From the NCBI GenBank assembly GCA_018902385.1, contig JABSSW010000096.1:1-31564 (forward strand): a stretch of 31,564 bases of DNA. Reading direction: 5' to 3'. This document shows, in pieces, positions 1 to 31,564 of the stretch. Source of the stretch: Physcia stellaris. Taxonomy: Eukaryota > Ascomycota > Lecanoromycetes > Caliciales > Physciaceae. The position numbers were made by a program, and so were the translations under genes. The first letter of the stretch is position 1. Every line of letters starts with the position of its first letter. Below the pieces are notes generated by a model. The model was not told the origin of the DNA and ran no database searches. It worked only from the letters and a program-made list of their open reading frames with translations.

Positions 1-1002
1 GTTAAAATTACGAATTATTTTTAATTATATGCAATTTGCATATATTGCGACATTATATCGAAATAACAATCGATAAATTTTTTGATACGTGAATACATTT
101 CAAAATTTTTGTTTAACAAAATGAACACAAACGCATTTAAAAACGAATTTGAAATTGATTTTCAACAATTCGAAACAAAATATGAATCGTTGCATCGAAA
201 TTTGAATTTTCAATTATCGTTATTTCAATTATCGTTCATCATCGAACAATTGATTTCAATTGAATGTCAAAACTTTGTTTTTCAAATTTTTCATTTTTTT
301 CGTTTTGATTTTCATTGAAACTTTTACAATCAAAAATATCATAAATTTTCGAATTCGTTTTTTCAATTATCGCATTTTAAAATCAACAAATGAAAATGTA
401 ATATTGTCGAAATTGTTTTTATATCGATAAAAACAATCGCGTTTTTTCAATTCATTCGCGCAAATATTCAACATTATCAATTTTAATCGCAAATGATAAA
501 ACGATAAAAAAATATACATTTGCAAAATCATTTTTTCGTAAAAAATTATCAAAATAAACAAACAAACAAAAAATCATATCGAAAATCGATGTTGATCATT
601 TCGACAATATCGAATCAATAATTAACGATACAAATTTTGACAATTTTATCAAAAAAAAAATTAAAAAATTTGTCGAAAATTCGATTATCAAAATCATAAT
701 TTATGAAAATATAATCGATATCAAAATTGAAAAATCGTTAAAAATTGATTACAATTCAAAAAACAAAAATTCAACAATCGAAAACGAATTATATCATTTT
801 TTCAAATTATCGTGCGCATATGCGTTTGTTAAATAATTCAACGACAACAAATGCATTAAAAAAACGATAAATCAATTTTGTATCGACGAGAAATTGAAAT
901 TTATATAAAAACACGCACATATTAAAAATAATATCAATTAATGAAATATGTTGAACATATTGAACAAAAATATTCACAACGATAAATGAATGAAAAAAAA
1001 TT
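1..1002 (+). pseudogene. Plavaka-like DNA transposase, upstream half (split by an LTR element)
   Basis: Degenerate coding sequence, clearest from about 585 to 1000, where a reading resembling the region ahead of the transposase core of fungal Plavaka elements can be followed. Visible pieces are ENELYHFFK (about 780), a segment around AYAFVK-stop-FNDN (about 815) where the stop is TGA in place of Trp, then CIKKTINQFC (about 850) and the HNDK-stop-MKKN piece that runs up to the LTR. The same protein resumes at 8465 beyond the chromovirus, so this is one gene cut in two. Nothing can be assigned securely in 1-560. Almost every C here is followed by A or G, the saturated form of the mutation pattern. 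The Plavaka name rests on recognised family motifs, which are stronger in the right half. Confidence 0.6.
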
Positions 1003-1174
1003 TGTTGTTAAATCGTTTGATAATTAGAAAATTTTGTTTGTTTGTCAGAATTTTTTGTTAATTAATCAAATGTCGATTAATCAAAAAATTAGATTTTTGA
1101 CAATGAATATATTTCGAAAATTTTGTATTTAAAGTTTTTCAATTTTTTTATTTTCATCGTATTGTTTTTTAGCA
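1003..1174 (+). repeat. 5' LTR of chromovirus 1
   Basis: About 172 bp starting TGTTGTTAAATCG and ending TTTTTTAGCA. It aligns along its length with 8290-8464; the shared core includes GAATATATTTCGA, TTTTGTATTTA and a terminal ATTGTTT(T/C)TAGCA. It is much more heavily mutated than its partner, having lost most CpT/ApG sites. The start is fixed by similarity to the two other LTR copies in the window and may be off by a few bases. Confidence 0.7.
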
Positions 1175-2143
1175 ATATGATAACATCATTTATCAATCAT
1201 CAAATCAACATTTTTGTTAGTCATTCAGCTAGCATCAATCAGAAAAAAAATTGTTTGATTGTAAATGTTATTTCATCAAATCAAGTTTTTTCGATGTCGT
1301 TTAAATTGTCGTCATAATTTACGTCATTGTTCGATTCGTCATTCGACGCATTTGTCAATTAGAATAAATTTTCAAATCTTATTGAATTTTTTTGATTTTG
1401 TTCGATTTTTTTCATTTCATTTTTTTTCTGAATTACGTTCGTTATTTTGTTGAAATCATTTTTTGTTTTCAAATGATTTTTCATCTTGTTATTCAGCTAT
1501 TGTTAATTTTACAGTCTTTTCACAAATTTCAAATTGACGAATTTTAATTTTGATCGATTTCATTTGATTTTTGTCGTCGTTCGTATCGTTTTCGATTTTC
1601 GTCGTTTTTTGAAATTTCATCATCGATGAATTCGTGAAATTAACGAAATACGATTCAGTTGATTATTGCTATAATTATTTTCAATCAATTTTCTTTTTGT
1701 TTGTCATTGATGTTAGAACTATTATTAGAATCGATTTTGAATTTTTGAGTTATTCATCAAAATAAGCTATCAATATCACTCGTTTTCGTGAAAATATTCA
1801 AATTTTTCGAGACGTCATTTTTGATTATCGAACATTCGAAACTTTTCGCAATTTTCTGCAATTTAAACATTTCAATTCAACTAACAGTAATAATTTCTCG
1901 TCAAACGTCTCATCGTCAAAATCTTCACGTAAATTTGAAATTTCACGAAATTCTCGTTTTCGTAACGTTTTTGAGAATCGAAATCAACAATTTTTAGTTT
2001 TCGTATCTGACATCTCACATTTTTCGAAAAAATCAACATTTGTTTTATTCGTCGATTCTGTCAACAATTTAAATACGAAAAAGATTTCTGCGAAGAAAAT
2101 CATATATTCATTATTTATAAAATTTAATCTATTAGTTGTTTCA
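1175..2143 (+). other. Chromovirus 1 leader between 5' LTR and gag
   Basis: A T-rich stretch on this strand with no recognisable protein and no long reading. It probably represents the untranslated leader and the decayed start of the internal region. Short open readings at 1123-1453 and 1788-1997 are F/I/S-rich products of base composition and are not called as genes. Confidence 0.5.
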
Positions 2144-3460
2144 ATGAATTCAAATTTTCAAACAATTATCATTGTTGTCGTCAATGTTGTTGTTACGCAG
2201 ATTACAAACGACATCAGAACAAAAATACGACAGAAATTACAGCAAACTCAACAAAACAATGATCAATTTGATCAGTCAGAATTTTTTGAATTTTTCGATT
2301 CTTCAAATTCGCTCGACGAAAATCTCAATATCGACGAAAATTTCTCATGACGTTCAAAAAATTTAGATTTTCTTGATTTCAAGTTGTTTGTATTTTATGA
2401 TTCAAATTCTATGATTCGAGACGACAAGAATGTTTACTATCGTAACGTTCATCTTTTTTGTGAAAAAATTCGAAATTTAATTGCTATCAAAAATGAAAAG
2501 TTGATTCGAATCAATTTGAATATCTGTTTTTTTGATTACGCATTCATTTAATATATTTCGAAGTTGAAAGTTTTGAGTCGAACTGATTTGCGTAATTTTT
2601 CGCTTGAAAATGACTGAATCAAAAAATTTAAATTACGTTTTAAATTTAATCATTTCGTTGTCATCGACGCTTTCATTTTCGAACGATATATTTTAATCGA
2701 TGTTCGAAATGATCGCGAGTCGTTCAACTATGTGCAACAAATTGTTAATTATGTCATGAACGTCAATTTTCAAAACACGCAACAACAGCTAATTTGAACA
2801 TGAAAAAATTTGAATTTTGATTTAAAACGTGATATTTCGACGTCGAATGAAATTATTTCGCTCACGAATTTTCTGCACATGATTGAGAACAAAAAAAAAA
2901 TTTGACAAAAATTGTACATTCGTGATGAAAATCGAGACGATCGCAATAATCGAAATCGACGTTTTAATCGTCAAATCAATAAATTCAATCGACAAAATAA
3001 CAATCGTGACGATTATTTATCGTTCGACGACGTTTATGCTTTTTATTTTTATTATTCATTTTTTAACTATTATTTTGCGAATTCAATTTACAATAATCAG
3101 AAATATCAGTATCGCAATTACGATCGACAATCAAACGACGTCAGAAATCAACAATAACAATTTGTTTTTATTTCAACATCTCAATTGTTTGTTGCACGTC
3201 AGTCTTTACGTCTAATCAACGAAAACGCGTTCGATTTCAAAAATCAAAATTCACGATCAAACGTCGAAAAATCTAGTCAACAACGAGAAGAAAAAATTAA
3301 AATCTACGTAATTGACGAAAAAAATGAAACACAATCGAAAAATACTTTGTCGAATGAGCATGATTATCATGTTGAAAATGAAAATTTTGAGTATTACGAT
3401 CAAAATAATATTCAAAGAAAAACGAAATGTTTGTCAATTTCATTTTTTCAATTGTAATTA
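2144..3460 (+). pseudogene. gag: gag pseudogene of chromovirus 1
   Basis: One frame runs from ATG 2144 through the segments 2144-2350, 2912-3157 and 3185-3457. Their common frame shows that they are parts of one Gag reading broken by stops, mostly TGA. The N-terminus begins MNSNFQ and soon becomes Gln/Asn-rich (KLQQTQQNNDQ). The middle holds charged segments such as RDDKNVYYRNVHLF (about 2425) and an Arg/Asn/Asp-rich stretch RDENRDDRNNRNRRFNRQ (about 2920). The end is polar and Glu/Asn-rich. No CCHC knuckle is visible in this frame; a C2-type finger follows in another frame at 3478. Gag forms the retrotransposon particle. The call rests on position and composition more than on conserved residues. 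Confidence 0.65.
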
Positions 3461-3477
3461 GAATTTCAAAATCTCAA

Positions 3478-3543
3478 TGTCGTCGATGCAAAAAGATTTT
3501 CTTATTCAACAATGAATTACATCATCATTTTCGTGTTGATTGC
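3478..3543 (+). other. Zinc-finger-like module (CxxC...H...H...C) between gag and protease
   Basis: In the frame opening at ATG 3427 the segment reads CRRCKKIFLFNN followed by ELHHHFRVDC. The Cys codons are at 3478-3480 and 3487-3489, three His codons at 3520-3528 and a final Cys at 3541-3543. The spacing fits a C2H2/C2HC finger. The same module stands at the same place in the - strand chromovirus (31252-31316), so it is a conserved part of the element family and not chance. It overlaps the end of the Gag frame in a second frame, as expected if the pol frame begins here. Its role is unknown; nucleic acid binding by the Gag-Pol junction is the simple guess. Confidence 0.6.
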
Positions 3544-4560
3544 AATTTCAGAATTGCAATTTCAATTTTTTCAAAAAAGATCGAAAATTTTCAACGACAT
3601 TGAAACATATTTTGTCACAAACGTCATTCTTTTTACAATCGATGTTACAAAGAAAATTAACAATTTTAGTCAATTTGACACAATTACGTTTGACGAATTT
3701 ACGAATTCATTTATCGTTAGTTTTATTTCGTCGAAATTCATTATTATTCGCTTTAGCGTCGACTCGTCACTGAAATAAAAATCGAATATGAATTTAAAAA
3801 TTGAAATTATATCAAAGCACAAATTTCATTGTCAATTAAAATTACAATTAAAAATGTTTGTATGAACATTGACGTCGACGTCATATTCGTCGATCGCGTT
3901 TTTTTCAAACAACAAATTTCGAAAAAAATTATACGTATCATGATTACGTCGTTGAAAATGCGTGATTTAAATACGAATAGACACGAAAGTTGAAAATATG
4001 TCATTTGCGACATACATTTTAAAAGAGTGAAAAATGACAAATCAATTGTCTCGATATTACGTCGCGAGATTCATTTGATAAATAATTTCAAAATTAACAT
4101 GTTCATTGACAATGATGTTCTCGATTCGAAAGATGTTGTAATAAATTCAATTAAAAGACAAACTTTCATCATCAACACAAAAACTATTATATTTGTGAAT
4201 ATACGTTCGTCTAAAACGTCAATTCAACGATCAATTCATATTCGCAAAATTACTGTTATCTCGTCGCAATCTGAAGTAGCTATTTTCATTCATCACGTTT
4301 TTTCGATTAGCAAAAATTTTCTATTCGAATCAATTGACGATATCAATTTTATTTTGTACGTTCATTTAGTGAATGCTTTTATTTCAGTTATTTTGATTCG
4401 AAATGAACGAAATCAAACTATTCAAATTTTTCGCAATTTTCGACTAAATCGCATCACAAAGTTAAATTTTTTCAATGTTTTTCAAATCAACACTGAGAAT
4501 GTCGATAGCGTGAAACATTTGACAATCAAAAAATTTAAATTTACTCACAAAAATGATTGA
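3544..4560 (+). pseudogene. pol: Aspartic protease region of chromovirus 1 (pol N-terminus)
   Basis: Retrotransposon aspartic proteases cut the Gag-Pol polyprotein. In frame 1 the sequence reads INVxxNIDVDV then IFVDR near 3865-3897. This fits the Asp-Thr/Ser-Gly active site followed by the conserved V-D-R element. The Asp (3871-3873) survives, but the Gly position now reads Asp, as expected from GG to GA. The reading continues through KNDKSIVSILRREIHLI (about 4030) and a MFIDNDVLDSKD segment that fits the conserved I-G-N-D-I-L motif, with Gly again read as Asp. The last part (4260-4560) is the linker toward RT. A matching reading exists on the - strand at 30268-30797. Stops in the first half are mostly TGA. 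Confidence 0.7.
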
Positions 4561-5640
4561 TTCAAAAAGTTGTTCGTCGCATGCGTTATTGCGTATATTG
4601 TTGTTGTTGCAATTAATTTTGATTTCGTCGTCAATCTAATTAAAATCAATGTGATCAATTTAGTCATGTCAAAATCGATGTTATCGATTTTTAGTTTCTC
4701 GTCTGAGTTCATGTCGCAAACTTCAAAGATTTTCGAGTTCACAATGTTTAACGAAGTTACTATACATCAATTTGATGAAATTGACTCGTTTGCTAAAATA
4801 GTTGAGAATTATTCGAAACTATTCAAAGACATTGATTTCGTCAATGTTTTCGAGAAGAATTGAATGCGCATTTCGCTCAAATTCGATTGAGAAAATCGAG
4901 TTTCGAGCAAAACTAAAATATATTTTTTTGATGTTAAAGATAAAGTTTTGATTGACGAAACATTTGATAATTTGCATGTCGTTGACAAAATATGCTGAAC
5001 TAATGAATTTACGTTTTTTTTTTATTCAATGTTTTGTGTCTGAAAATTAGACGTTGATGATCAGCGCAAAAATCGCATCGTCATTGATATTCGAAATTTT
5101 AATGTTATAATTCAATCAAATGTCTATTTTTTATTTTTTCAGAATGAAATTATCATGATTGTTCGAGATTGTAATTACATATTTGTCATCGACTGTTTTG
5201 TTTTTTTTTTATCAATGACGAATGCATTTCGAATCGACATAAATTTATTGTCGTTAATCATCGAGATCAAGAAAATTTCAACGTAGTTGTCATGAGATTT
5301 AAAAATTCGTCAATTTACGTTCAGCGTCAAATTGATCGACTTTTGCGACAACATAGAAATTATGTTCGCGTTTACGTGAATGACATCGTAATTTTTTTTC
5401 GTATCAAAAAGAAACACGAAAAACATTTACGTGTCGTGTTTTCAATGCTCAAAAAGAACAACATTTCGATAAAACTCATCAAGACATTCATTGATTATTT
5501 TTCAGTTTCGTTACTAAATCAAAAAATTGATTCGCTAAATCTAGTTATTGCAACTGAGAAACTCAAAACTATCGTCAAATTGCGCTTTTCTATCAATTTA
5601 CGTCAATTAGAATCGTATTTGAATTTCATCGATTGAATGC
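4561..5640 (+). pseudogene. pol: Reverse transcriptase region of chromovirus 1
   Basis: 4561-4863 is the linker. The RT domain starts near 4864 with segments fitting the RT N-terminus (KTKIYFFDVKDK, VVDIRN-like at 5085), then VIDC with the first catalytic Asp at 5191-5193. Next come FxYQ-stop-RMHF (TGA for Trp) and FKNSSIYVQRQIDRL (about 5300). The polymerase box YVDD reads YVND (TAC-GTG-AAT-GAC, 5373-5384), which removes a metal-binding Asp. A frameshift near 5236 moves the frame before the 5292-5636 segment. The region ends at ESYLNFID followed by TGA, where the family has Trp. The RT is dead by both stops and catalytic loss. Confidence 0.85.
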
Positions 5641-6436
5641 GAAATTACATTTTCTTTTACGTCGACATTAATAAATTTTTTCAAAAGCGCAAAATCGCTT
5701 TATTTAAACATGATTTTGTAATTGACAATGTTAAACGCGCATATGTTTTCAAAACGCGTTTAAACAAATTTTTCGAATTAAAACGTGTTGTTTTCAATAT
5801 TTTGCAAAACATATTTTCGAAATTATTTTATTTGATTCACTCAAATAACAAACGACGATTGTTCATTGATTTAAACGTTAACAAAAAATTTGATTTTGAA
5901 ATTATGTTTTATTACGTCAAGAAAGTTTATTTGAAAAAATTATCATTTGATCAATTTTCATTTCGATATGTTATCGAGTCGATTTTTTTCTTAGTCGTTT
6001 GTTTATTTCAGTCGAAACACGTTATTGATCAATCGAGTTTGAAATAGCTGATATCGTATAAATTTTCAAAAAGATCAGACATATTATCGAAATTGTCGAC
6101 ATTTCGACGACTGACAAGATCGTAATTTATACGAATCACGATGCAACGTTGAACATAATTAATCAAACATCGTTTATTACGTCATTCATTGACAAGTTCA
6201 ATTTTCGATTTGTTAAAGTTTCAAATTACATACAATGTTTCGATCTCGATATTCGACACAAGTTTGACAAGCAACACATCGTTTCGAATGCTTTATTCAA
6301 ATTGATTAGCGACAACGTCAATGCATTTAATCATGATGACGACGAATTCGACGCGCTGTTTATTATTTCATTTGTCGAGATGAAATCGAAATTTAAACAA
6401 CGTATATTGAATGATTATAAAATTGATTTTAATTGA
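5641..6436 (+). pseudogene. pol: RNase H region of chromovirus 1
   Basis: RNase H removes the RNA strand after first-strand synthesis. The segment begins RNYIFFYVDINKFFQKRK, the conserved connection after RT, and contains LFIDLNVNKKFDF (about 5860), the usual FxDxDAS-type motif with the second Asp read as Asn and Gly read as Asp. After a gap comes IVIYTNHDATL (about 6120), again with Asp to Asn, and then DLDIRHKFDKQHIVSNAL (about 6245), the conserved D-I-x-H-x-x-G-K-x-x-x-x-x-D-A-L stretch. The frame changes twice (5637-6047 and 6149-6436). The matching - strand copy is at 28412-29074. Confidence 0.8.
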
Positions 6437-7638
6437 AAACGCATTTCGAAGCAATTAAACGTTGAAATTAACAACGAAATCGCTGCAAATTTGTTTTTCT
6501 GTAAAAAAAAAACGATTTTATTTTTCGCTCGAATGATTTTATTATTGACGATCATGTTTACGAATCACGCAAATTATGTATATTTCATTCAATTGTGCAA
6601 AATATTCTCGAATTAATTCATGATGATGAACATTTTGATTACGTCAAATGTTTCGAGCAAATAGTTTTCTTTTGATACATTCGCGAATTTTTTCGCTATT
6701 TGAAAAATTATTTTAAACATTGTTCGAATTGTTAAATCTATCAAATCAAAAAACATGTTTCATACGAATCGTTGCAATTCATTTTAATTTCAACAATATC
6801 GTTTCATATTATTATTATAGATTTCATTTTGACGTTGTCAACTTTCATAGATGATTATGACACAATTATGTCGATATTTTGTAAATTCATCAAAAGAATC
6901 ACTTTTGTGCTAAACAAATTCACTTGATTTGTTGTTCAATGAAAAGAAGCATTGTTGAATAAATTAAATACAACGAATTGAAAATTGCTCAAAGCTATAA
7001 TATTTGATCGAAATCGTAAATTTTTGAGTGAAATGTGAACAATCATTTTTCGAAAACTAAAAATAAAATTACTTTATTTCATTGTTTATCATTCGCAAAC
7101 AGATGATCAATTCGAACGTACGAATCAAACGATCGAAATAGCTTTGCGATTTCATCTAATTATCATGAACAATTCAAGAAAATGATCAATCGTATTATCA
7201 AGAATTCAACGACATATCAACAATGTTGTTTCGATTACAATTGACAAAAACTCGAATGAAATTGTTTACGAATTCACATTTTTGCAAATCAATGATTTTT
7301 GAAAAATGCTCGAGATCGTCATCACTGTTGATGTTGATAGTCAGATATTTATTGACACGTTCGTTGACATCAATTTCAATTTCGCAGCTCGAGTTCGTGT
7401 GAAAATCGTTGATTCAATAATTTTTGTTCAAATGAAAATCAAACGCAATTACGACGACAAACACAAATCAATTTACATGCGTGAAGAAAATTACGTTTTA
7501 ATCAAATTACATCACGAATACGACATATTTTCTATTGTTGTGTTTGAATCAAAATTTAGTCAACAATTCGTTGAATCTTTTCGCGTGTTGAAACGTGTCG
7601 AACGTCTCGTTTACAAATTGAATTTTTCAATTCATTGA
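6437..7638 (+). pseudogene. pol: Integrase region of chromovirus 1
   Basis: Integrase inserts the cDNA. The HHCC zinc-binding part is visible as HDDEHFD (about 6623), a stop-YIREFFRYLKNYFKHCSNC segment to about 6735 and KKHVSYESLQ (about 6745). The DDE core shows IIDFILTL with Asp at about 6830-6832, FDRNRKF with the second Asp at 7006-7008, and HSQTDDQFERTNQ with Glu at 7114-7116, so all three catalytic residues are still readable. The 7306-7638 segment is the C-terminal part and ends VYKLNFSIH before a TGA, where the family has Trp. Stops inside the core are mostly TGA. Confidence 0.85.
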
Positions 7639-8205
7639 CGTATACATTCGATATTGTTCATAACTCAATTAGAGTCAATTTTTGCGTTCTCGAACGATTT
7701 TTTCAGTCGTTCACGTTCAGATCATTCGAATTTTGTTTTCGTTGAAAGCGATATTGAGCGTGTCAAATTTTACGAAATCGACAAACTAATTGACAAAAGA
7801 CAAACAAAGCGTCGAGATAGCGAGTATTTTGTGCGATGAAAAAATTACGATTTTCAATTCGATGAGTGACGTAATCTGCTCGAGCTCGATGATGTCATGA
7901 AATTGATTCGAAATTACGAGAACGTTCAAAATTTCATCGTTCATTTATTTGATCGTTTGCAATTATTTAACTCATCGTCAATTGTCGTGAAACTTTTGAT
8001 TATCAAAGTCAAAATCAAACGTAATCGATTTTCTAAACTAGTTACGACGAATATCACTACATTTATTTTTACAACTAGCAATTCGATCATTTTTAACATT
8101 ATCGTCTCGCAAATGCTCTTCGTTATGTCGAAATTTCTCGTTTTATCGACATTTTCAGTCGACGCGCTGTTTCGAAAATCATTTCGTCTATTGATGAACA
8201 AATGA
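7639..8205 (+). pseudogene. pol: C-terminal chromodomain and tail of chromovirus 1 pol
   Basis: After IH-stop-RIHS and ITQLES comes a spacer, then YEIDKLIDKRQTKRRDSEYFVR, a TGA, KNYDFQFDE, a TGA and RNLLELDDVMKLIRNYENV (about 7768-7925). This is the chromodomain pattern Y-x-V-E-x-L-x-D-x-R...EYLV-x-W-x-G...DEW, with both Trp codons now TGA. In chromoviruses this domain reads histone marks and steers integration to heterochromatin. The tail up to the TGA at 8203-8205 has no recognised domain. The - strand element has an equivalent at 26466-26990. Confidence 0.85.
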
Positions 8206-8289
8206 TGAGAAAAGAATAACAATAGAACTATGATTAATTAAAAAAAATGATATGAATGATGAACAGTTGAAACAACGTTTTTTTCTTTT
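8206..8289 (+). other. Chromovirus 1 segment between pol and 3' LTR
   Basis: A short untranslated segment. A purine-rich run GATGAGAAAAGAATAACAA at about 8203-8221 could be a polypurine tract, but it is not adjacent to the LTR start at 8290. The bases directly before the LTR are pyrimidine-rich. The equivalent position in the second chromovirus has a related sequence. Confidence 0.3.
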
Positions 8290-8464
8290 TGTTGTGAACA
8301 AATTGTTAGATGTTGACTTTGTCTGTTTGTTGACATCTGTCTGTTAACTAGTCAAATGTCTGTTAATTAACTAGCTAGATTTGACTTGACAGATGAATAT
8401 ATTTCGATTATTTTGTATTTAGCATTTTTCAATCTTTTGCATTGTCATCGCATTGTTTCTAGCA
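8290..8464 (+). repeat. 3' LTR of chromovirus 1
   Basis: About 175 bp starting TGTTGTGAAC and ending GTTTCTAGCA. It retains many CpT/ApG sites (TGTCTGTTT, CTAGCTAGAT) that are lost in the 5' copy at 1003-1174. The end matches the LTR end of the - strand element after alignment. The Plavaka reading resumes directly after it. Confidence 0.75.
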
Positions 8465-10150
8465 ATTGAAAATGTTTTCGTTAATCGTTATTCGTTGTAT
8501 TATCGCGATTGTATCAAAATATTGAAATTTTTCATAAAACACGAATTTTTTGCGAACAATTTAATATATGCGTTTATTCGTAAATACGAAATTACGACGT
8601 CGAACGAAACACACGTGACAAACGACGATGTTCGAATATAAACAAAAATGCACACAACAAATTGATAATGACGCGTGCAAAAAAATTGTTTGTTAAAACG
8701 ACAATAATATCGATTAAATTAATGAATGATCAATTTAAATTGAACGTTATAAATGACGTGTCACAATTATAATCGATATATATAATTATAACGAATTTAA
8801 ACAATACGATTATAAAATAGCGTTTTCGATTAAACGTTATTTTATTGAATTTAATTTCGATATCGATTGACGAAAACAATATAAAAACGAAATTTTATCA
8901 TAAATTTATAAAAATTATGTTATGTCGTAAATTAACAATTTTTTGCGAAAAAATTGATAAATTAATTTTTGTTATTGTATCAACATTGAAACAATATGCG
9001 ATTTTTGAAATTTCGATACGATACGCAAACGACAAATTTAAAAAATATTATTCGATTTTAATGAATATATCGATCGATTATTCGAAACAAACATTGATTA
9101 CGAATGTTAAAAACAAATTTCATTGTTCGATTTATATGACGTCAAATAAAAAATTTGAAAATTTATATTCACACGAACATTGATTTATGCGTAATCATCA
9201 AATTAACAAAAATCAAATCAAAAAACAACGAAAAAAAAATGAAAAAAAAACGATCAAAATCGACATGAATACATTAAATCGATCAATAATTTTGTTTAAA
9301 AACATTATTTGTTCAATATGCATCAAAAATGTTTTCAAATTTTTTACATCAAATGATAAAAAAATGATCGATTTGTATGTAAAAAATTAAATATTTTAAA
9401 TTTCAAACGTTATGACGAAAATTTTCAAAAAAAAACAACGCAAACGAAAAAAAAATTGATTTAAATTCAAATCGAAACAACGAAACAATTGAATTAAACA
9501 TAAACGCGTGTTTCATCATACAAAAATTTTATTATTTGAAAAACGTATAATGATACAAAAAAATAACAAAAAAAATTTAAAAACAATATGCGTCAAATTG
9601 TTTTTATCATGATTTTTTTTTAAAAAAAAAACACAATTCGAAATGTTGTTTTGCATTAAAATAATAATCAATATAACGATGATAATTCAATATCATTCGC
9701 ATATCGAAACAATCATGAATTACATACAACATTATTTGCATGTTTTTAATATTGTCAAAAAAACATTGCGTTTTTTTTTTCAAAAAAACGATTTTTTAAT
9801 ATTTTTAAAATGCACAATTTGATTCATTATTCACATTTCATTCGAAAATACGATGTTTTGACAAATTTTAACATCGAAATTGAAAAAACGATTCATTCGA
9901 ATCATTTGAAAATTTTGTAAAAATTGATCAACAAACGAAAAAATTATAAAAAACAAATGTTACAAAACAATACGCGTCGAACAAACGTTTTGATTGTCGA
10001 TGATTACGATTTATGAAAACAAAATCGTGCAAACGATCATGTTGAAATTCAAAATATCGATTTGACGAATAATTCGAAAAATAAACAACAAACAAAAATC
10101 ACGAAATGCAAAAACATGAAACAATTAAAATGAATAATTGATAAAAACGA
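8465..10150 (+). pseudogene. Plavaka-like DNA transposase, downstream half
   Basis: Recognised by a chain of family motifs in order: YYRDCIKILKFFIKHEFF (8498-8550); TKMHTTN followed by TGA-TAA-TGA (8663-8671), which stands where the family has a conserved run of three Trp; TTIISIKLMNDQFKLNVIND (about 8698-8757), the usual A-T-I-x-P-I...D-Q-T-x-L-N block; IYIIITNLNNTI (about 8767); KYYSILMNISIDYSKQTLI (about 9045) with the following HCSIY; IQYHSHIETIMNYIQHYLHVF (about 9688-9750); and FNIFKMHNLIHYSHFIRKY (about 9798-9855) followed by NFNIE, matching the F-N-I-P-K-x-H-S-L-x-H-Y...N-x-E region. Two or more frameshifts and many stops are present. The protein match fades after about 10000. I found no terminal inverted repeat. 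Plavaka is a superfamily of cut-and-paste transposons found mainly in fungi. Confidence 0.75.
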
Positions 10151-20696: not shown

Positions 20697-20714
20697 AACG
20701 CGATTAATCGCGTT
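20697..20714. repeat. Perfect 18-bp palindrome at the insertion site
   Basis: AACGCGATTAATCGCGTT equals its own reverse complement. It begins directly after the right target duplication, so it was beside the insertion point before the element arrived. Confidence 0.85.
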
Positions 20715-21883
20715 TAATCGATTTTATTTAATTTTTTTTAACGATTGCATGAACATCGTTGCATTTTATTTTTATATTCGTTGATTTTCATTTAATCGTT
20801 ATACGAATATATCAACATTTCGAATTCGAAAAAAAATTTATTGCATTGTTACACAACGTGCAATTCGACGATCAAATTTGACATTATTCGCAAATTCATA
20901 CATCAATTGTTTGTTTAATTGTTTGTTTAACACGTTCGTGCAAATGCGAATTACATGTCGAAAATATCGATTATAATGATTATTTTCAATGTTTCTCGTG
21001 AAAAAATTTGAAAAAAATTGAACGTAAATTATTGAACAAATGATCGCATTCGTATTGATTTAAAAATAAACGAAAAAACGTACAAAATAATATACGTTTT
21101 TTTGAAAAAAAAAATGATTAAAAATGAAATGTTGAATAACAAATTTAATTATATTAATATCAAAAGAAAATTGCAATCGATTTTTATCACAATTAAAAAA
21201 AAATATTTTACAATATTCGAAAACGTCGATTTCGCATGAAAAAAAACATGTTTGTTTCATTGAATTCAAAAAATCAACAACAATTGCAAAAAAAAACGTA
21301 CAAATTTAATATCATTAAAAAATTATGCAATAATAATTTTATTATAAAATTTTATTTATTCAATGTCGTTTTCGATGCAATCACATTTCTTTTTCGAAAA
21401 AAAAAAATGTTATAACGAAATGTGTCGATCAAAAAACATGATTTTTTCAAATATTTTCTTTGAAAAAATCACGATGAAACATTTAAAATTTGATAAATTT
21501 GTACAAATATTGAAAAAAAATGTGAAAATAAATTTCGAATTGAAATTCATACATTGCGAATTATATGAATTAAAAAATATCAAAAATCAACGATGCGATT
21601 TTTTTCGTTTTTGAAAAATCGCGATTTTCGAAATATATTTTTATGAATTTCATCATTTGTTATTTTTTATTAAATTAAATTAAAATAAATCATCAATGCA
21701 AATCAAAAAAAACATTTTGATTTAACGATTTATATTAAAAATTAACGTAACGAATTATAAAAACGATCGACGCACAATTTTTCAAAAAATCGACATTTTG
21801 TGATTAATTCGATTCAAAATATCGATCAAATCAACGTCAACATCGTTGTGCAAATTGTTACAACAACGACGATTTTTTTTTGT

Positions 21884-22080
21884 TCAATTTTTTTCGTTTT
21901 CAATTCATTTTTTTTTAATTCGTTTTTCATTTTTTTTTCATTATTCGTTTTCAATTCATTTTTCGTCAACAATTCATTTTTCATTTTCAATTCATTTTTT
22001 GTATGCAAATCATTTTTCAATTTTTTTTTGTTTTTTTTTTCATTGTTTATTTTTTTTTCACGACTTGTTTCGTTTTTTTC
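21884..22080. repeat. Low-complexity T-rich irregular repeat
   Basis: Many irregular copies of TTCAATTCATTTTT and TTTTTCATTTTC. On the - strand they read as a Lys/Asn/Glu repeat (KNELK, KMKNEL). The period is not constant. The pattern is probably replication slippage, or the remains of a Lys/Glu-rich coding repeat. Confidence 0.7.
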
Positions 22081-25000
22081 GATTCATAAAAATCGAAAAC
22101 GAAAATTGTAACAAAAAATATATTTAAATAAAATCAAAAAAATTGACAAAAATTGAAAATGTAATTGAAAACAAATTGAATTTAATGCAAATTTAATTCG
22201 ATATTAAACAATATATGATTTTTGCAATTACGTCAATTGTGAAAATTTCGAAAATCGTATTCGAATATTGAAAATTTTCGCGATCGCACGATTTATAAAT
22301 CGTATTCAAACATTGTCGATATTCATTTTTGACATTATTCAATTGTTGTTGAAATCATTGAACACGATCGAAAACAATTTATCAATATTTAAATCGATTC
22401 AAATGCGATCGAAATACGACGTTGATTGATTTAATTTTATTTCGAATATTTTGTCATATTTCGAATTTCAATTTAACATCAAAAACAATCGTGTTGCGAA
22501 AATATTGAATTGTCGCGATTAAATGTTTGTGACGATTTGTCAATTTTCGCAATTGTGTTTTTAATTTTGAATATTTCGAAAAATATCGCAAAATACAAAT
22601 CATAAAAAATAACGATTGCGATAAATATCATTGACGTCGTTTCATTCATCGTTCATCGAAATTTTTGAATTCGAAATTTGAAAAAAAAAATTATGTTAAA
22701 AAATTAAATATCAATATAACGAAAAACGATATTTCATTTTTTTTGTCGATGTTGATCGTCATAATCGAACATTTCGATCGCAAAAAAAATCATATTTGAT
22801 ATAAATAATAATTTAACACATTTGAAATTGTTTTAACAATTTATTTGATTTCAATCGCACAATTTTGCAAAATACAAACAATCAAACGAGAAATAAACGA
22901 CACGTTCGTATATTTGATAAAACACGTTAAAAATTAAATAAATTTAAATTTTCGCGAAACACGTTAAACAACAAAATAATTTGACGATCAAAACAAACAA
23001 TAATTGTTTTAATCAACGACAAAAATTTTGTTCAATCAATTTCGTCAATCACAATTAAAAACGTTTCGCGTTAAATTGCATTGTTTTTTTTTTGTTTTTT
23101 TATTTTTGATATATATTTGATGTCGCGTTGATTGTAACACATTTGTTTTTCAATTTTTGTGTTTTTATATTAAAATTCAACATAATGTTTTCGATTCACG
23201 ATTAATTCGATTGATTAATTCAATGATTTCAAACAAATTAAATCGAATCAAAAACGTCAAAATCGACAATGCGAAATTTCACGTACAACATTCACAATCG
23301 ATATTCGAAATTGTTTTTTTTGCGATAATCAATGTTGCAATTAATTGTTCATGAATTAAATTGCTCAATCAAATGATGTTGTTGATTTAAAAACAAATTC
23401 ATTATTTGCACGCACATAACAAAATACATTTAAATACAATCGCAAAAAAAAAACGTACAAAAATCATTCAAAAAACGCAAAATTATTTCGAATAATTTCA
23501 AAAATATATCGAACGACGAAATCGATACAAAAAACGACAACAACAATAAAAATTCGAAAAAAAAAACATGAATATCACATTAAAACGACGTTTGACAATT
23601 GTTGTAAATCAAATCATTCATGAATGATTCAATAACGTATTGAATTATTTACAATTTAAAATTTCGATATCAATCGATGTTTTCAATCTTTTTACATCAA
23701 TTGTGAAAAAACAATCGACATTAAATCGAAACAAATCAAACGATTTCATTTTTTTATCAAAAACGAACAATCGAAAATATCGACGTGATATAAATCGACA
23801 TTTTTTTGAACAAAATTTTTTGTTACATAAACGTTCGAAAAAAATATCGATTACACGATAATATTGAAAAATCATTAAACGACAAAAAAACAAAAAGATT
23901 TTTTTTAATGATAAACATGCATCTTTGATGAAACGAGTTTTTTTTTATTTTCAAACATTAATATTCAATGAATGTATCAAAATCAAATTAAACATTTGAA
24001 TAAAACATAATTTCGATACGATCAACGATTTTATTTTGAAAATGTAAAAAGAATGCAAACGAATGTTTGAACGCAACATAAAACGACATTCGAAAATTAT
24101 AAATGTATCGCAAAATTTCGAAACGCGAATCGTAAAATTATTTACATAAAAAATATGCAAATACATTAACGTCAACACAAATGTACGATTCAATCGACAT
24201 TTTTCGATTTAATGCAATTTACAAAATCAAAAACATAATGATTTCGTATTATAAATTCGAAATCATTGTCAATTTTTATCAATTGATTGCGAAATTGTTA
24301 CACAATCATGTTTTCATTCGTTTTGATTACAAAAATTTTGAATCGAAAATAAATAAATGCGTGTCAATTATCACAATAAAAATTAACAAATATTGTGTAA
24401 TTTATTTCATTTATTGTCGACATTATAATTATCGCGATTTACGACATATTTTTCAAAAATTTTAAAAATCATTTCGATTTTCAAATGTACATCAAAAACA
24501 TATTCAATAAATTTCGTTTTGTTATAATATTTTTTGTAATCACAATTATACATCATGCGATTAAAAAATATTTCGCGAATAATAAAAAAACAAACATGAC
24601 ATTCGAAAATTTAACGATAAAAAATATGTTACGTGTTATTTCGATTTTTTACATTATTAATATGCAACAAACAATTACGAATTTTACATGTTAATTTGAA
24701 AAAATTTAAATTTTCGTGTTCAAAATGAAATTTGCAAATATTTTCAAAACAAAATTAAAAATCGAATCACAATCAACGCAAAAAACAATGAAATTTTAAA
24801 AATTATTTCATTGAAATGTGATTATTTCATCGAAACGATCAAAATTTTGCGAAACAACAAAAAAATTGTTTCACGCGTTTTTATATCGAACAATTTTCAA
24901 ATTGATATCAATAATTCGAATATGATCGATGAATTCGTTAATCGAAAAATTAATGTCAATTATAACAATATCATATTATATTTTTTGAAAAAAAAAATTG

Positions 25001-26191
25001 ACACGATTTCAAATTTTCGTTCAATTTTCAAATTTTTTACAAACAATGATCGTTTGACATCAATTGTCGAAAATTCGAATGTCGATTCATTAAAAACAAA
25101 AAAAAAAAAAAAAAACAAATTCAATACGAAAACGAAACAATTGAAAAACGTGTCGAAAAATTGATAAATCGAATTCATATATGCGATGTCAATGTGTTTA
25201 TTGTTCAATCATAAATAACAAAATATAAAAAACGCAAATTTTGAAATCGAATCGTCGAAAAAAATAAAATTTATTATTTTATTGAACAACAAAACGATCA
25301 AAAATGAACGTTCACGTACGATTTAAATTGACAAACATGATGTAAAAAAATAAATATACAAAACGAAAAAATATTTGAATATATTTTGCATCGAAAATTT
25401 TGATTTATCAAAACGAATGAAAATTACAATTCAATGAAAAAAAAATTGCAAATGAATTATAAAAAACGTTTCGAAAAATCAATAACGATGCAAAAAAATG
25501 TAATTACGAAAACGATTTAATATATATTGAATACAAATTGTACATTTCGTGTTTGATAAAAACAATCAATTAAAATTTAATTGATAATTTAACACGAATC
25601 GATAAATTCAATGATAAAAATGACGTTAATAATCATTTTAAAACAAAAATTTCAAAACAAACGCGAAATAAAAAAAATAAAAAATATTTGATACGACAAA
25701 AACGAAACAAATTGTCAATAATTTTGATGTGTAAAAAACGATTTGAATGTTCAAAACAAAAAAACGAAATAAATGAAAAAATCATTAAAAAATAAAATGA
25801 TTTTTTGAATGCATGATGCGCACGAACAACAATCAACAAAACAAAAAAATTATTAATCAAAAAATATACGAAAAAGAATGAATTTATTTGATACGTTTTG
25901 AAATATTTTGAAACAATTCAATGTTTCAAATGTAAATTTTGAATCAACAATGAACGATTTAAAGCAAATTTCAATTGTTTGAAATTTGTTTTTGACGAAA
26001 CGTTATTGATTTGAAACAATGAAAAACAATAATTTTGATTATTTGATTAAACGACTCGAAACAAATCTCAAACGTCAAAATCAATCGAATATTTTTTTCG
26101 ACGTTGAGTCGAGATTTTGATTGATTACAACTTCAAAATTCAATATCAATTCGACGTTAAAAACGTTAAAATTGATGTTTTGATTCAAATG

Positions 26192-26395
26192 TGTCAAAAA
26201 CAATGTGTGAAAGAATGTAAAAAGCTTGATTGTTAATTCTACGAAGAAGTTTCGAAATATATACTGTAAAACTATGATGACAAATAATTTATTTCTCAAC
26301 GACAAACACGTTTAGTTTTCAGATTTTGTCATTGACAATCGTCAGACAGATTTTCGTCTCATAGTCGACAGATTTTTAACAATCTGTTTCAATCA
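26192..26395 (-). repeat. 3' LTR of chromovirus 2
   Basis: On the - strand it starts TGATTGAAACAGATTG and ends ATTGTTTTTGACA. Both ends align with the chromovirus 1 LTR (start TGTTGTGAACAAATTG, end ATTGTTTCTAGCA), and the middle shares ATATATTTCGA and C-T-T-T-T-x-CATT. It is about 204 bp. The partner 5' LTR should lie beyond the right edge of the window. Confidence 0.65.
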
Positions 26396-26465
26396 AAATA
26401 GACGACATCGTTTCGATGTCAACAATGCTTTCTAATCATACAAAACATTATTCGTGTTGATATTT

Positions 26466-26990
26466 CTAATTTTTTTTTAATTTCTGAAATCGATGAGAGC
26501 GTCGCATCAAAATATCAATTGCGATAATCGACGACGTGATTGAAATCAGCGAAATGATAAAAGATGTGATCAATTCGACGATGATTGACTTTCGAATCAA
26601 AACAAATGTTTCGAATTTAAAAGTTAACGAAAATGTCGTGTTCGATTTACGTGAAATAACGATCGCGAATCGTTGATTTGTTGAAAAGTGATTGACAAAC
26701 GTCGACGTCGAAAAAATAATTGTGAAAAACTTTTTAATCAATGAGATGACTGCGAAAAACTGTCTAAAATCGAAAAATTTGAACGAAATGATAGTTTTGA
26801 TCGATAAAATGAAAAACTTATGCAAACGATTTGACAGAAACATCGTTGAACGCAACGCGTTTTCGTAATTTTGTACAAAATTTTGAACGTCATCGAATTT
26901 TGATAAATTTCGTCATTCATCGTATTGTGATTTTCAATTTTTTCATTTGACAAGATATTCATCGTCACGACGCTTGATTTGACGTTTGTT
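26466..26990 (-). pseudogene. pol: Chromodomain and tail of chromovirus 2 pol
   Basis: Reading leftward from about 26990: IEKFINKRQIKRRDDEYLV, then K, TGA, KN, TGA, KSQYDE, TGA and RNLSKFDDVQNFVQNYENA, then on into the open tail to 26466. The three TGA stand where the chromodomain and its surroundings have Trp (EYLV-x-W-K...DEW). The longer open reading at 26738-27049 lies in another frame and is a shadow. Confidence 0.8.
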
Positions 26991-28328
26991 GATAAATTTT
27001 TCAATTTTTTATGATTTGATTCGATTCGTGTCTTTTTCAACGAAAACAAAATCTGATTGATTTGAGCGTGAACGATTGAAAAAATCGTTCATTGATGAAA
27101 AAACAAATTTCAATTGAGTTATGAATAAAACGAAATATATACGTCAATGATTCGAAAATTTCAATCGATATGTCAGATTGTCAATTTTTTCAAAAATTTT
27201 GAAAAAATCGATATATTGTTGATTCAACTTTTTATCGAGAATTTCAATTGTCGATATGTTGTAGTCATGATGCAATTTAATCAATGCATAATCGTCAATT
27301 TTCATGAACAAAAATTGATGTTTGCGATCATAATAATATTTGTTGATCATTTGAACGAATGCAATGACGTCAATCATTTCAAAACGAGCACGAGTAATTG
27401 CATTGAAAGAAGTTTTTGCGAATGATTTTCGATTGTCAATTGCGAAAAACTTTTTCAAATCGTCGATGAAATCAGATGTAACGAATTGACGAAACATGTT
27501 CAAAAATTGCAACGAAATGAATTCGTAAAACGTTTCATTGAATGTTTTGTGAATAATGACAAAGTGAAAATTGTTGAAATGACGTTGCAATTTGAGCAAT
27601 ATTTCAAGTCATTCAACTGAATTTTTCATTGTAATCAGATAAAATCGAAAAACAATTTCAATCATCTGATTAATTCGCTCGAATTGATCGTCAGTCTAAA
27701 AATGATATGCAGTTGAATAAAGCAAACGAATTTCGAATTGTTTGAAAATTGTTGTTTACATATCAAACAGAAACTTGCGATCTCGATTCGAGATTATGAT
27801 TTTCGATATATTTCAATCAGCAACATCTAATTTGTCGATTAACGCGATTTTTCATTCAGCGACAAATCAAATTTTTTTGTCGACAATGAGTGTGAATCGT
27901 TTCGTGAACTTGCAAATGACAAACATCGTGATATTCAATTCGTCACGAAAAACAAATAAAACTAAAATGAAATCAATGATGATTGTATGAAATGAAATCG
28001 ACGAAATTAATATGAATTGTAATGAGTCATACGATGCGTGTTTTCTGATTTGATACATTTGACATTTCGAACAATACTTCAAATAATCACGCAAATAACG
28101 AGACAAATCGCGAATATAATATGAAACGAACATTTTTTCGAAACATTTGACGTAATCGACATGTTCATCGTCATGAATCAATCGCAAAATGTCTGATACA
28201 ACGAAATGAAAAATGCAAAGACGACGCGATTCGTAAACATGATCATCGATGATAAAATTATTTGAACGAAAAATCAAATCATTTTTTTTTATAGAAAGAC
28301 AGTTTTGCGACGTTTTCGTCGTCAACAT
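26991..28328 (-). pseudogene. pol: Integrase region of chromovirus 2
   Basis: The 27867-28328 reading holds the zinc-binding part (IHDDEHVDYVKCF...YCSKCQMYQIRKH) and the first catalytic Asp in IIDFILVLF. At about 27780 the second Asp region reads SNRDRKF, so Asp has become Asn. Near 27690 a stop-TDDQFERINQ segment keeps the catalytic Glu; the stop is TAG for Gln. The 27144-27599 reading is the C-terminal part and ends YRLKFSNH before TGA (Trp), then RIYFVLFITQLK. Confidence 0.8.
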
Positions 28329-29134
28329 TCAGTATTTGATTGATCTTTTGTCAATTTAGATTTGTTTTGTAGCTTTCGAGTATTCGATTGCGAAAGTTTT
28401 TTTCATTTCGATTAGTGAAATTGTGAACAGAAAGCATCAAATTCATTTTCATTAAAATTTCTGATCATTGACGCGTTGATATTATCGTTGATTAAACGTG
28501 ACAAAACATCAGAAACAATGTGTTGCTTGTTTGATTTATGTCGAATATCGAGATTGAAACGCTGAATATAATTTGAAACACGAACAAGACGTAAATTGAA
28601 CTTGTCGATCGAGATTGTTGTCATCGTGATTTGATTAGCAATGTCGAATGCAAAGTCATGATCAATATAAACGATTGTTTTGTTTGACGAAATTTCAACA
28701 ATATGTTTTGTTTTTTTGAACATTCATACAATGTTTGTTATTTCGAATTTAATAAATCAATATTTTGTCTCGACATCGATGAGTAGTCGATTAAAAAAAA
28801 ATATCGACTTTATAACGTGACGAAGAAAATATTTGTTTAACTCGAAAAAAAATTTTTTGACATAATACAGCATGACATCGAAATCGAACTTTTTGTTAAC
28901 ATTCAAATCGATGAATAATTGACGTTTGAAATTCGAATATATTAAATAAAAAAATTTTGTCAAAACGATTTGCAAAGCATCGAATGAAATCAATTTTTTT
29001 GTCGTAAAATGTTGCACGCGTGTTTTCGAAAAATAAACGCGTTTAACATTTTTTGCAATAAATTCGTTACGCAAAAGTTCTGTTTTTTTGTTTTGTAACG
29101 ATTTGAAAATATCAACATAATGAGCGATATAATC
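28329..29134 (-). pseudogene. pol: RNase H region of chromovirus 2
   Basis: Reading leftward: LRDYIAHYVDIFKSLQNKK after the TGA that closes the RT segment, then LFIDLNVNKKFDF, IVYIDHDFAFDI and DIRHKSNKQHIVSDVLSRL. The DLNVNKKFDF block carries the same altered residues as chromovirus 1. Here IDHD keeps the Asp that is Asn in chromovirus 1. Confidence 0.8.
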
Positions 29135-29945
29135 ACGTAATCAGTCAATCAAGTCAAAATACGTTTCGAATTGTCGAAAAATACGAGAAAATCGAAATTT
29201 GACAATTGTTTTGAGTTTTTTTTCGAACGTGATTAAATCGAATGAATCAATTTTCTGATCGAGAAATGAAATTGATGAATAATTCAAAAAAATTTTGATG
29301 AACTTGATCGAAATGTTGTTTTTGTTTAATATTGAAAATATTTTGCGCAAATGAGTTTCGTGTTCGATTTTTGTACGAGAAAATATCACTATATCGTTCA
29401 CATAAATTTTAACAAAGTGACGATATTCGCGAAACAATCGATCAATTTGACGCTGCACGTACGTCGATGAGTTTTTGTAATTCATGACGATCACGTTGAA
29501 ATTTTTTTGATTTCTATGATTGACGACAATAAATTTGTGTCGATCATTTGAATGAACTCGTCATTGATAAAAGAAAATTGAACAATCAATGATTGATATG
29601 TAATCGCAATTTCGCATTGCGATTATAATATTTGTTTGCAATGATAACGAATATGCGTCAAATGTGTTATGACATTGAGATTTTTAATGTTTATAATTAC
29701 ACGATTTTTTTCTCGTCGTCAACGTTTTTTCAAACGCAAAAGCAAAAATAGAAAATGACGTTGATTGATTAATTCAGAACATTCGATCAGCGATTGCAAA
29801 TCGTCGAAAATTTTGTCAATCAATTTTCTGTTTTTTGCATTCAAAAAATACATTTTTGTTTTCTTTGATACACGCTTTTTTCAATCATTTTTCAATGATA
29901 TCTTCATTCAATTTTTTTCGACATTTTAGCAAAGTCGATATTCTG
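29135..29945 (-). pseudogene. pol: Reverse transcriptase region of chromovirus 2
   Basis: The 29141-29494 reading starts MNYKNSSTYVQRQIDRLF and has the box YVND (TAT-GTG-AAC-GAT, complement of 29393-29404) in place of YVDD, the same loss as in chromovirus 1. It ends FDLID before a TGA at the conserved Trp. 29495-29945 holds the N-terminal RT part, broken by stops in all frames. Confidence 0.8.
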
Positions 29946-31251
29946 TCAGAACGTCGAAAATTTCTCAACAATCTTGACGAATGAGTCTAGCTCGTCGAAA
30001 TTGTAAACGATAACGTCGTTAAACAAAACGATTTCGATCAGCGAAATAAAAACGTCTGTAAAAGATTTTTCGAAATTGAAAACTTTTCGCAACTCAGCAA
30101 CTGACATCGAAACTTGTGACAGAATGACTACAAACGATATCGATGTTTGTGACAGAACGATTAGCGACGATGAAATAGCAAACGTAATCGAAAAATTATT
30201 ATCGACTGTAACAACGACGACGTAAATCACGACGCAAACGAAAATGAATTTTTTGAATCAATCATTTTTATGAGTGAATTTTGATTTTTGACGACGAAAT
30301 ATCTGACATTTTCGTCGTCGATATCGATATGAAAATCATTGAAAAATCAATTTCAAATATTCTGTCTAATCGAAAATTTCTAAAAATCATAATTGGAAAT
30401 TCTTTATCGTTGCGTACAATAATAGACTTAATAAACGCGTCAACGAAATGCAAGATACAAAATAAAATTGAAATTGTCATTCGACTCAAACAAAAATTTT
30501 TGTAATCGACAATTCAACATGATGAACGACGACGATCATTTCGACATGTGACGAAATGACTGTAATTTTCTTGAAATGTACAAATCGTTGAATCGTCAAT
30601 TTGAAAAAGCGTATTTTCAACGATATGATTATGTCGATATTATCAATTATTGCATGTCTTTTGATCATGTCAATAGCGAAATTTTCGAATTCAATGATGT
30701 CATTGTCTAAAAGCATATTGACTTTCAAATTGTCAACGAAATGAATTTCACGCTTGAACAACGACGTGATTTTCTGATCATTTTTTGTGTCAAACATATA
30801 AATATCACATATGACATATTTTCAACTCTCATGCCGATTAATGTCTAGATCACGAATTTGAAATGACGAAATCATGATACGAATGAGAATATTGAATGTC
30901 TGTGCTTTGAAAAATTTCGATTCATAAATGAAACGTTAATATCGATGTTCAAACACACGTTTTTTGACACGACGATTACGACAAGTGAAATTTTGATTTT
31001 GACGTAATTTCAATCACGAAATTCGTATTCGATGTCAATATCTGCTGACGAATCGACGTTAAAACGAATAATGATGAATTCAAACGAAATAAACGAACTC
31101 GTAAATTCAACAAACGTGATTGTGTTCGATTGATTAAACTTCGCTGATTTCTTTTGTAGCATCGATTGTAAAAAACGAATTGAAATTGAAATTTTTGATC
31201 GAATATGTTTCGACGTCGCTAGAAAATTTCGACTTTTTGAAAAATCAAACT
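29946..31251 (-). pseudogene. pol: Protease and linker region of chromovirus 2
   Basis: Readings at 30486-30797 (FKREIHFVDNLKVNMLLDND, then IIEFENFAIDMIKR), 30268-30489 (RNFRLDRIFEIDFSM) and 29946-30230 (VIVYNFDELDSFVKIVEKF) match chromovirus 1 at 4027-4863 piece by piece. The LLDND segment fits the conserved L-x-G-N-D-I motif with Gly read as Asp. The protease active site lies upstream, near 31000, in a stop-rich stretch where NIDINVSF can be read. Short + strand readings at 30281-30505 and 31333-31515 are shadows. Confidence 0.7.
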
Positions 31252-31316
31252 ACAATCATCACGAAAATGACGATGTAACTCGTTGTTAAATGTGAAAACT
31301 TTTTACATCGACGACA
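31252..31316 (-). other. Zinc-finger-like module of chromovirus 2
   Basis: On the - strand: TGT-CGT-CGA-TGT (Cys-Arg-Arg-Cys, complement of 31305-31316), Lys-Lys, then after a one-base deletion N-N-E-L-H-R-H-F-R-D-D-C. The His codons are the complement of 31267-31275, and the final Cys is the complement of 31252-31254. It matches the module at 3478-3543 residue for residue at the zinc-binding positions. Confidence 0.6.
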
Positions 31317-31564
31317 ATGAGATAGCGACGACTTGATCATTACTATTGACGCAATGAAATTAACGAGAATTTCATTTTTTTTGATTCGAATTGTAGTAAT
31401 TCAAATTGTCGTTCTCAATATAATAATTTTTATGCTTTTGATTGAGAAAGTCTTTCGCAAAATGAATTGTGAAAATTTTTCACAAACTTTTTTTTTTTGT
31501 TATTTTCGTCGATAACAAAAATTCTAGTTTTGTTATCATGATTGTCAAATTCGTTTCGATTATC
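31317..31564 (-). pseudogene. gag: Partial gag region of chromovirus 2, cut by the window edge
   Basis: By position relative to the zinc finger module this should be the C-terminal part of Gag. No conserved residue can be pointed to in this short piece. Confidence 0.4.

Follow-up and report, generated by a model that had tools for sequence, protein, structure and literature searches.

Repeat-induced point mutation (RIP) is widely detected with CpA-to-TpA indices. The Neurospora context order, as quoted in a Trichoderma study, is CpA>CpT>CpG>CpC, and the Trichoderma paper's own order also places CpC last (PMC5496416). CpT accompanies CpA-type RIP in Botrytis, Sclerotinia and Magnaporthe, in a paper whose available text does not contain the term 'CpC' (PMC4352252), and van Wyk 2021 describes CpT to TpT as the dominant alignment signature in RIP-capable fungi (PMC7882544). 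Here we compare these systems with contig C96 of Physcia stellaris, analysed over its entire length of 31,564 bases (the window). This AT-rich DNA is almost free of CpC and GpG, and it very probably consists of nested, long-dead retrotransposons struck by a RIP-like C-to-T mutator that is aimed at repeats and prefers C before a pyrimidine (CpY).

The available portions of further papers give a similar picture of the known contexts. RIPCAL reports for Stagonospora that CpA leads, with CpT in some families, and lists CpC and GpG among the dinucleotides depleted from repeats; a Monilinia paper describes CpA together with CpC to TpT double changes; and a kingdom-wide k-mer screen of 2025 concludes that a preference for CpA is common to RIP-like defences (PMC12543289). 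For lichen fungi, RIP was inferred from GC content in Cladonia rangiformis, for which RID and DIM-2 homologs are reported in a paper whose available text lacks the terms CpA, CpC, CpG and dinucleotide (PMC12542154), and Gyalolechia flavorubescens and Cladonia metacorallifera are RIP-positive on CpA/TpA indices (PMC7882544). The P. stellaris genome paper (46.57 Mb, 184 scaffolds, 43.3% G+C) does not contain 'repeat-induced' in its available text, where matches to 'rip' are RiPP peptides only (PMC7513301). The genome sequence searched in the present work comprises 43.97 Mb in 147 contigs.

Dinucleotide loss and its mutation context

The whole window contains one GG (30395–30396) and one CC (30834–30835), for which base composition predicts ~563 and ~554 occurrences, respectively; the combined count is 2 against ~1117 expected. 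Ratios of observed to expected counts (O/E) are 0.00 for CC and GG, 0.32 for CT and 0.29 for AG (0.31 for CpT/ApG combined), 1.25 for CA, 1.35 for TG, 3.08 for CG and 0.45 for TA. Loss of CpT is blockwise, with 2.3–3.1 CT+AG per kb in 1–1000, 8461–14320 and 20684–25875 and 40–56 per kb in 1001–8460, 14321–20683 and 25876–31564. No CC or GG occurs in five of these six blocks, and the last has 2. Between 9421 and 9540, all 16 C precede either A (10) or G (6). The initial annotation, made by eye, had located both surviving dinucleotides to the base, expected several hundred of each, reported CpT/ApG as nearly gone over large parts with CpG and CpA still common, and given the same tally for 9421–9540; counting reproduces each of these statements.

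Indices built on CpA rate the window RIP-negative although only two CC/GG remain: the product index is 0.45 (threshold >1.15), the substrate index 1.39 (threshold ≤0.75) and the composite index −0.93 (threshold >0), with thresholds taken from the available text of PMC7882544. The CpA preference, raised TpA/ApT and lowered (CpA+TpG)/(ApC+GpT) of canonical RIP are not found here, and CpG, which would be lost from repeats under TpCpG/CpG-type mutation, stands at the O/E of 3.08 given above.

We derived the mutation context from alignments to an open-framed, GC-normal copy of a retroelement on contig C12 (L045). A 2-kb piece of this copy, used as query, was found in at least 40 places, itself included (40 of 192 candidates scored). 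Of the 39 other places, 20 were aligned, and removal of one near-intact copy (L047) left 19 mutated copies, which were pooled. C-to-T change affects 4210 of 4500 CpC (94%) and 3956 of 5147 CpT (77%), as opposed to 287 of 4542 CpA (6%) and 213 of 4842 CpG (4%). The annotation had proposed a process aimed at C before a pyrimidine and had named mainly CpA or CpG changes as the outcome that would speak against it; the tabulation by 3′ base shows strong enrichment of CpC and CpT and leaves CpA and CpG nearly untouched. As in RIP, C:G to T:A transitions dominate the differences between repeat copies: they make up 336 of 352 differences in the least mutated copy (L048) and 473 of 482 in L051. Transversions are rare in these alignments. 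L048 already displays the same context, with 199/242 CpC (0.82), 127/275 CpT (0.46), 6/247 CpA (0.02) and 4/264 CpG (0.02) mutated. Under a random-hit model, the CpT rate relative to CpC is 0.34–0.36 in L048 and L049 and 0.51–0.53 in L050 and L051. CpC is lost before CpT across copies, an order also suggested by the window, with its blocks rich or poor in CpT. The 5′ base has a small effect in the pool (CpC 0.88–0.91 and CpT 0.68–0.78 across −1 bases). Reverse-transcriptase matches (150 of 527 candidates scored) bear the corresponding damage: 10 lack an internal stop, and one or more TGA, the expected product of TGG to TGA change, occur in 138.

Comparisons with the window itself are consistent in direction. 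Between the window and a copy of 91% identity, 238 of 255 substitutions are transitions, and among 218 transitions with an equal 3′ base 158 lie before T, 35 before A and 25 before G. A copy of 73% identity to the window family (L012) has 777 differences of a broad spectrum, C/T being followed by T in 127, by A in 108 and by G in 79, as the context signal fades in old copies once hardly any CpY is left on either side; L011 (268 aligned columns) and L013 (35) were left out of this comparison.

Three described processes were considered and rejected, in agreement with the annotation, which had judged that none of them fits. Canonical CpA RIP is contradicted by the 6% of CpA mutated, the CpA O/E of 1.25 and the negative index tests; methylation decay at CpG by the 4% of CpG changed in copies and the CpG O/E; and TpCpG mutation by CpG being the best-preserved context.

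Nested elements and confinement to repeats

The arrangement of the window is as follows, with LTR denoting long terminal repeat:

1–31564: contig C96, AT-rich mutated repeat DNA, almost CpC/GpG-free (CC+GG 2 vs ~1117)
1–1000: CpY-exhausted block, CpT gone too (3.0 CT+AG per kb, GC 0.216)
1001–8460, forward strand: CpC-free, CpT-retaining block, degraded repeat family (dinucleotide densities and genome matches)
8461–14316: CpY-exhausted older block, target of the nested insertion (dinucleotide densities)
14312–14316: target-site duplication of 5 bp, left copy, AATCG (flank comparison)
14317–14532: LTR copy 1, 216 bp, starts TG, ends CA (direct-repeat search)
14533–20475: retroelement interior between the LTRs, nested (open reverse-strand fragments at 16031–18939)
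20476–20691: LTR copy 2, 92% identity to copy 1 (direct-repeat search)
20692–20696: target-site duplication of 5 bp, right copy, AATCG (flank comparison)
20697–25875: CpY-exhausted older block (dinucleotide densities)
25876–31564, reverse strand: CpC-depleted, CpT-retaining block, degraded Ty3-like retroelement (integrase domain, family match)
27867–28328, reverse strand: open 153-amino-acid fragment with integrase zinc-binding domain PF17921 (E 7.4e-8, above cut-off)
30395–30396, forward strand: sole GG (dinucleotide count)
30834–30835, forward strand: sole CC (dinucleotide count)

The CpT-richer block 14321–20683 coincides with the LTR pair, which has AATCG on both flanks: an LTR retroelement is nested in an older, CpY-exhausted block. 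The LTRs of one element are identical at insertion. This pair now has 17 differences, all of them transitions (14 at CpT, 3 at CpA, 0 at CpG), and no CpC remains in it. Some reverse-strand fragments of the interior contain repeated C2H2-like fingers (zf-C2H2_4, 1.6e-5, bits below the curated cut-off). At 69% identity, 27964–30025 on the reverse strand matches the 4001–7000 family; searches for LTRs of the blocks 1001–8460 and 25876–31564 found none at ≥60 nt, nor at ≥120 nt with shorter seeds.

Repeat loci elsewhere in the genome have lost CC/GG. The 4001–7000 family has 58 matches, window places included, and 30 loci around such matches (two from the window) have CC/GG O/E of 0.00–0.06 save L032 and L037. 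In L037 (O/E 0.73), ~30% of the locus is GC-normal flank and the edge is sharp: the last CC/GG lies at base 1411, and none occurs in the remaining 3.3 kb. L032 (C63:54720–59692) is a part-way copy with GC 0.354, CC/GG O/E 0.24 and CT/AG 0.74. Conversely, all six 4-kb loci taken at round coordinates have CC/GG O/E of 0.90–1.03 at GC 0.47–0.52, and loci of three methyltransferase genes (L005–L008) have 0.93–1.00; L001–L004 were excluded, as GG and CC form part of the pattern by which they had been retrieved. We further analysed 20 of 40 1-kb places drawn at random across 28 contigs and sorted by GC, not by copy number: 17 have GC of 0.45–0.56 and CC/GG O/E of 0.73–1.05, and three, the only AT-rich ones, have GC of 0.23–0.29 and zero CC/GG. 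Mutation appears confined to repeats, and the GC-normal DNA sampled, including the three methyltransferase genes, is spared, as in RIP. The comparison of AT-rich with gene-rich DNA that the annotation had proposed finds CC/GG loss in the former and none in GC-normal pieces, and GG/CC loss in single-copy genes, the other outcome that would have spoken against its claim, was not seen.

The signature extends to other contigs. A search with the integrase fragment of the window returned 19 proteins in ENA contigs at 36–89% identity, whose 3473 residues include 5 Gly and 2 Pro (neither occurs in 14 of the 19); in the frame of the intact element, Gly accounts for 4.4% and Pro for 5.4%. GGN are the sole Gly codons and CCN the sole Pro codons, and this scarcity implies that GG/CC loss reaches past the present assembly; as the query was itself free of Gly and Pro, the sample is biased and demonstrates the existence of the signature, not its range. 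Trp is not near zero in these relatives (39 residues), perhaps, at a guess, since gene callers read TGA as Trp. Two scans of viral_contigs yielded no relatives at the DNA level.

Independent hits, strand asymmetry and competing explanations

Hits are largely independent between copies. Among 12 copies (66 pairs), the sharing of CpT mutation gives phi values of −0.00 to 0.31 for 64 pairs, mostly slightly positive; in the exceptions, L048/L049 (0.81) and L051/L055 (0.91), sharing looks to be by descent. L048 also contains a tract of ~315 bp (reference 1300–1615, bounds chosen after inspection) in which 0 of 44 plus-strand CpY are mutated (CpC 0/13, CpT 0/31), against 142 of 211 beyond it, while its minus strand is mutated as elsewhere (32/43; CpC 23/25, CpT 9/18). 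None of 1000 shuffles gave an unmutated run as long as the longest on this plus strand, 44 sites; in 38 tests, one per strand for each of the 19 mutated copies, only the L048 plus strand lay at or below 20 in 1000. In L049, both strands of the tract are mutated and several minus-strand sites differ from L048, so that part of the tract may derive from another copy by conversion. Whether or not conversion occurred, DNA hit on one strand only exists, which implies that the strands can be hit separately. Tests of concordance between neighbouring CpT sites in six copies disagreed: p was 0.0185 on the same strand and 0.048 on opposite strands for L062, 0.0395 on opposite strands for L048, and >0.1 in the other 9 of 12 values. 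No inference was drawn from them.

Several observations weigh against a repeat-aimed CpY mutator in its simplest form. (i) The three AT-rich random pieces are classed by GC and not by being repeats. (ii) In L048/L049, the youngest mutated pair and one with a common history, the mutated fraction of CpT is 0.37 when G precedes and 0.62 when C precedes, and it reaches 0.71 with A two places on: the rule is not purely CpY. (iii) With the post hoc bounds of the L048 tract, the shuffled-run figure is the fairer one. (iv) Near-intact, GC-normal retroelement copies exist on C12 (L045) and C5 (L047) at 96% identity; either the mutator works with less than full efficiency or these insertions are new. 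(v) In the C5 copy, one strand but not the other is mildly enriched in CpC changes (15/138 vs 2/108, p = 0.005), which reflects either light hitting or chance, given that several comparisons were made, and the C12 and C5 copies differ in both directions. The open frame of L045, 947 amino acids, runs past the edge of the locus.

Of the explanations that dispense with such a mutator, slow decay survives best, although we consider it unlikely: CpC and CpT would be methylated by a maintenance enzyme (DIM-2-like) and lost by spontaneous deamination. The genome does carry a DIM-2-like gene, the order of preference might just as well belong to methylation, and blocks of differing apparent age differ in their loss of CpT. 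Yet by the time 82% of its CpC had been converted, L048 had gathered 16 differences of any other kind among 352, which appear too few for gradual loss; the tract converted on a single strand and the retention of CpG likewise speak against it.

Far less probable is an assembly artefact, in which nanopore reads of modified CpC/CpT in methylated repeats would be miscalled as TpC/TpT and left uncorrected by short reads. The assembly is a hybrid of Nanopore and Illumina data at ~30x each, according to the available text of PMC7513301, and repeats are hard to polish. Such miscalls are difficult to reconcile with the weak correlation of hits between copies, a tract changed on a single strand, in-frame stops, mostly TGA, that interrupt most reverse-transcriptase matches, and, depending on how their contigs were sequenced, the ENA relatives, which are Gly/Pro-poor as well.

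Equally improbable is a stand-alone deaminase, of AID/APOBEC or another type, acting on repeat DNA. RID-class methyltransferases read the 3′ neighbour and AID/APOBEC deaminases the 5′ neighbour; the present pattern depends mainly on the 3′ base and far less on the 5′ base, the opposite of AID/APOBEC. The one-strand tract would suit a deaminase, and the genome has eight cytidine-deaminase domain matches (PF00383); no APOBEC_N (PF08210) match was found, in a search that is positive in no control genome either and so proves little. One cytidine-deaminase match, C64:178666–179121, has four TGA in frame (an intron or a damaged copy).

Least probable of all is a process that affects AT-rich heterochromatin irrespective of repeats, be it compositional drift, selection or weak mismatch repair. 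The AT-richness of the affected DNA and the GC-based classing of the three random pieces would allow it, but it is countered by zero CC/GG over long stretches where CpG is ~2 to 4 times expectation, by the sharp edge in L037 and by GC-normal copies of the same element elsewhere.

Candidate enzymes and comparison with known systems

A CpY repeat mutator almost certainly exists, whatever its enzyme. Since specificity is set by the 3′ base, we infer an agent of the methyltransferase class, probably a RID-class cytosine methyltransferase with its target preference shifted from CpA to CpY. A PF00145 profile search of the genome gave four matches in three genes, two of them in one gene. Judged by best match, L006 is DIM-2-like: its nearest PDB entries by far are 9bap/9baq (E 2e-181), titled DNA (cytosine-5-)-methyltransferase, which we take to be fungal DIM-2; the domain search lists no BAH domain for it. 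L005 and L007 are RID-like by their grouping with RID-like proteins of other Pezizomycotina, so that genes of the RID/Masc1 class are present, as in RIP-capable fungi. In a tree of 26 chosen rows, mostly named proteins and with several long branches that warn of false joins, L007 falls with lichen RIDs and Xylona, and L005 joins Heterodermia on a long branch (2.75) beside Aspergillus, Penicillium and Cyphellophora (support 92/89). L005 (C6:790057–794028) is highly divergent, with PPCQ..SPAQ; Heterodermia P0147 has SPAQ too, and 23 of 23 other readable rows end in H. Heterodermia carries both types, and further L005 relatives, at 60–94% identity, lie mostly in ENA and lgn contigs.

It is conceivable, though we regard it as doubtful, that this second RID-class enzyme of Physcia and Heterodermia has become the CpY-specific repeat mutator. 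Haloplaca, also a lichen fungus, has two RID-like proteins as well (P0104, P0190), P0190 lying on a third lichen branch with Lecanora; the assignment to L005 becomes less likely because a second RID-like protein is not special to Physcia and Heterodermia. A simple pattern search did not find PPCQ in Haloplaca P0190.

The proposed course is as follows. A repeat-aimed mutator would convert C:G to T:A in the order CpC > CpT >> CpA ~ CpG, a RID-class methyltransferase presumably reading CpY in place of CpA and probably acting in the sexual phase, like RIP; the process may then be RIP in the strict sense, premeiotic and RID-dependent. The C that are left in CpA and CpG after the loss of every CpY site seem refractory; this would account for the CpG-rich, TpA-poor end state. 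The CpY-exhausted segment 9001–12000 has 12 copies elsewhere (1.6–3.2 kb, 88–96% identity), some of which lie at the end of a contig or close to it (C18, C36, C10). These copies may be subtelomeric, or target-free and immune to further mutation; if they are equally exhausted, this suggests that the remaining C is refractory or that copying went on after exhaustion. Were L005 the enzyme, repeats stripped of all CpY would become immune and be freely copied again.

The annotation had called C before a pyrimidine an undescribed RIP context. For CpT this does not hold, as it is a known companion and alignment signature of RIP, and depletion of CpC was noted by RIPCAL; what stands is the combination, since we found no report of CpC-led, CpA-sparing repeat mutation in the available open-access literature, a scope that the 2011 Clutterbuck survey falls outside. 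The pattern points to a system that disables transposons and that standard tools would overlook, and surveys that rely on CpA-to-TpA indices may have missed or misjudged whole clades. Divergent RID-class enzymes and a nearly reversed preference in one genome constitute a natural experiment on RIP sequence preference, whose origin, and RID's own part in it, are directly testable with this system. If the role suggested for L005 is true, target choice in the RID family is evolvable and CpA is no fixed property of RIP.

The system resembles the described ones in different respects. With RIP of Neurospora and other Pezizomycotina it shares C:G to T:A change in repeats, sparing of gene-like DNA, hits made per copy, and RID-like and DIM-2-like genes; it differs in its order CpC>CpT>>CpA~CpG and in TpA, which is depleted instead of enriched. 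CpT is hit and a RID/Masc1 gene is present in Botrytis, Sclerotinia and Magnaporthe also, but CpT there pairs with CpA, whereas Physcia spares CpA and CpC leads. The TpCpG/CpG mutation of Microbotryum and Basidiomycota is likewise a repeat-biased C-to-T change in an unusual context (PMC4352252, available text), yet it targets CpG, the context best preserved in Physcia. Methylation induced premeiotically (MIP) involves an enzyme of the same Masc1/RID class (same source), but Physcia DNA is mutated, not merely marked. The lichen reports on C. rangiformis, G. flavorubescens and C. metacorallifera have in common with Physcia the degraded, low-GC repeats in Lecanoromycetes, and the latter two differ in being positive on the CpA/TpA indices that the Physcia window fails. 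Compared with the usual fungal rule, the Physcia pattern is that of a RIP-like mutator with a nearly reversed dinucleotide preference.

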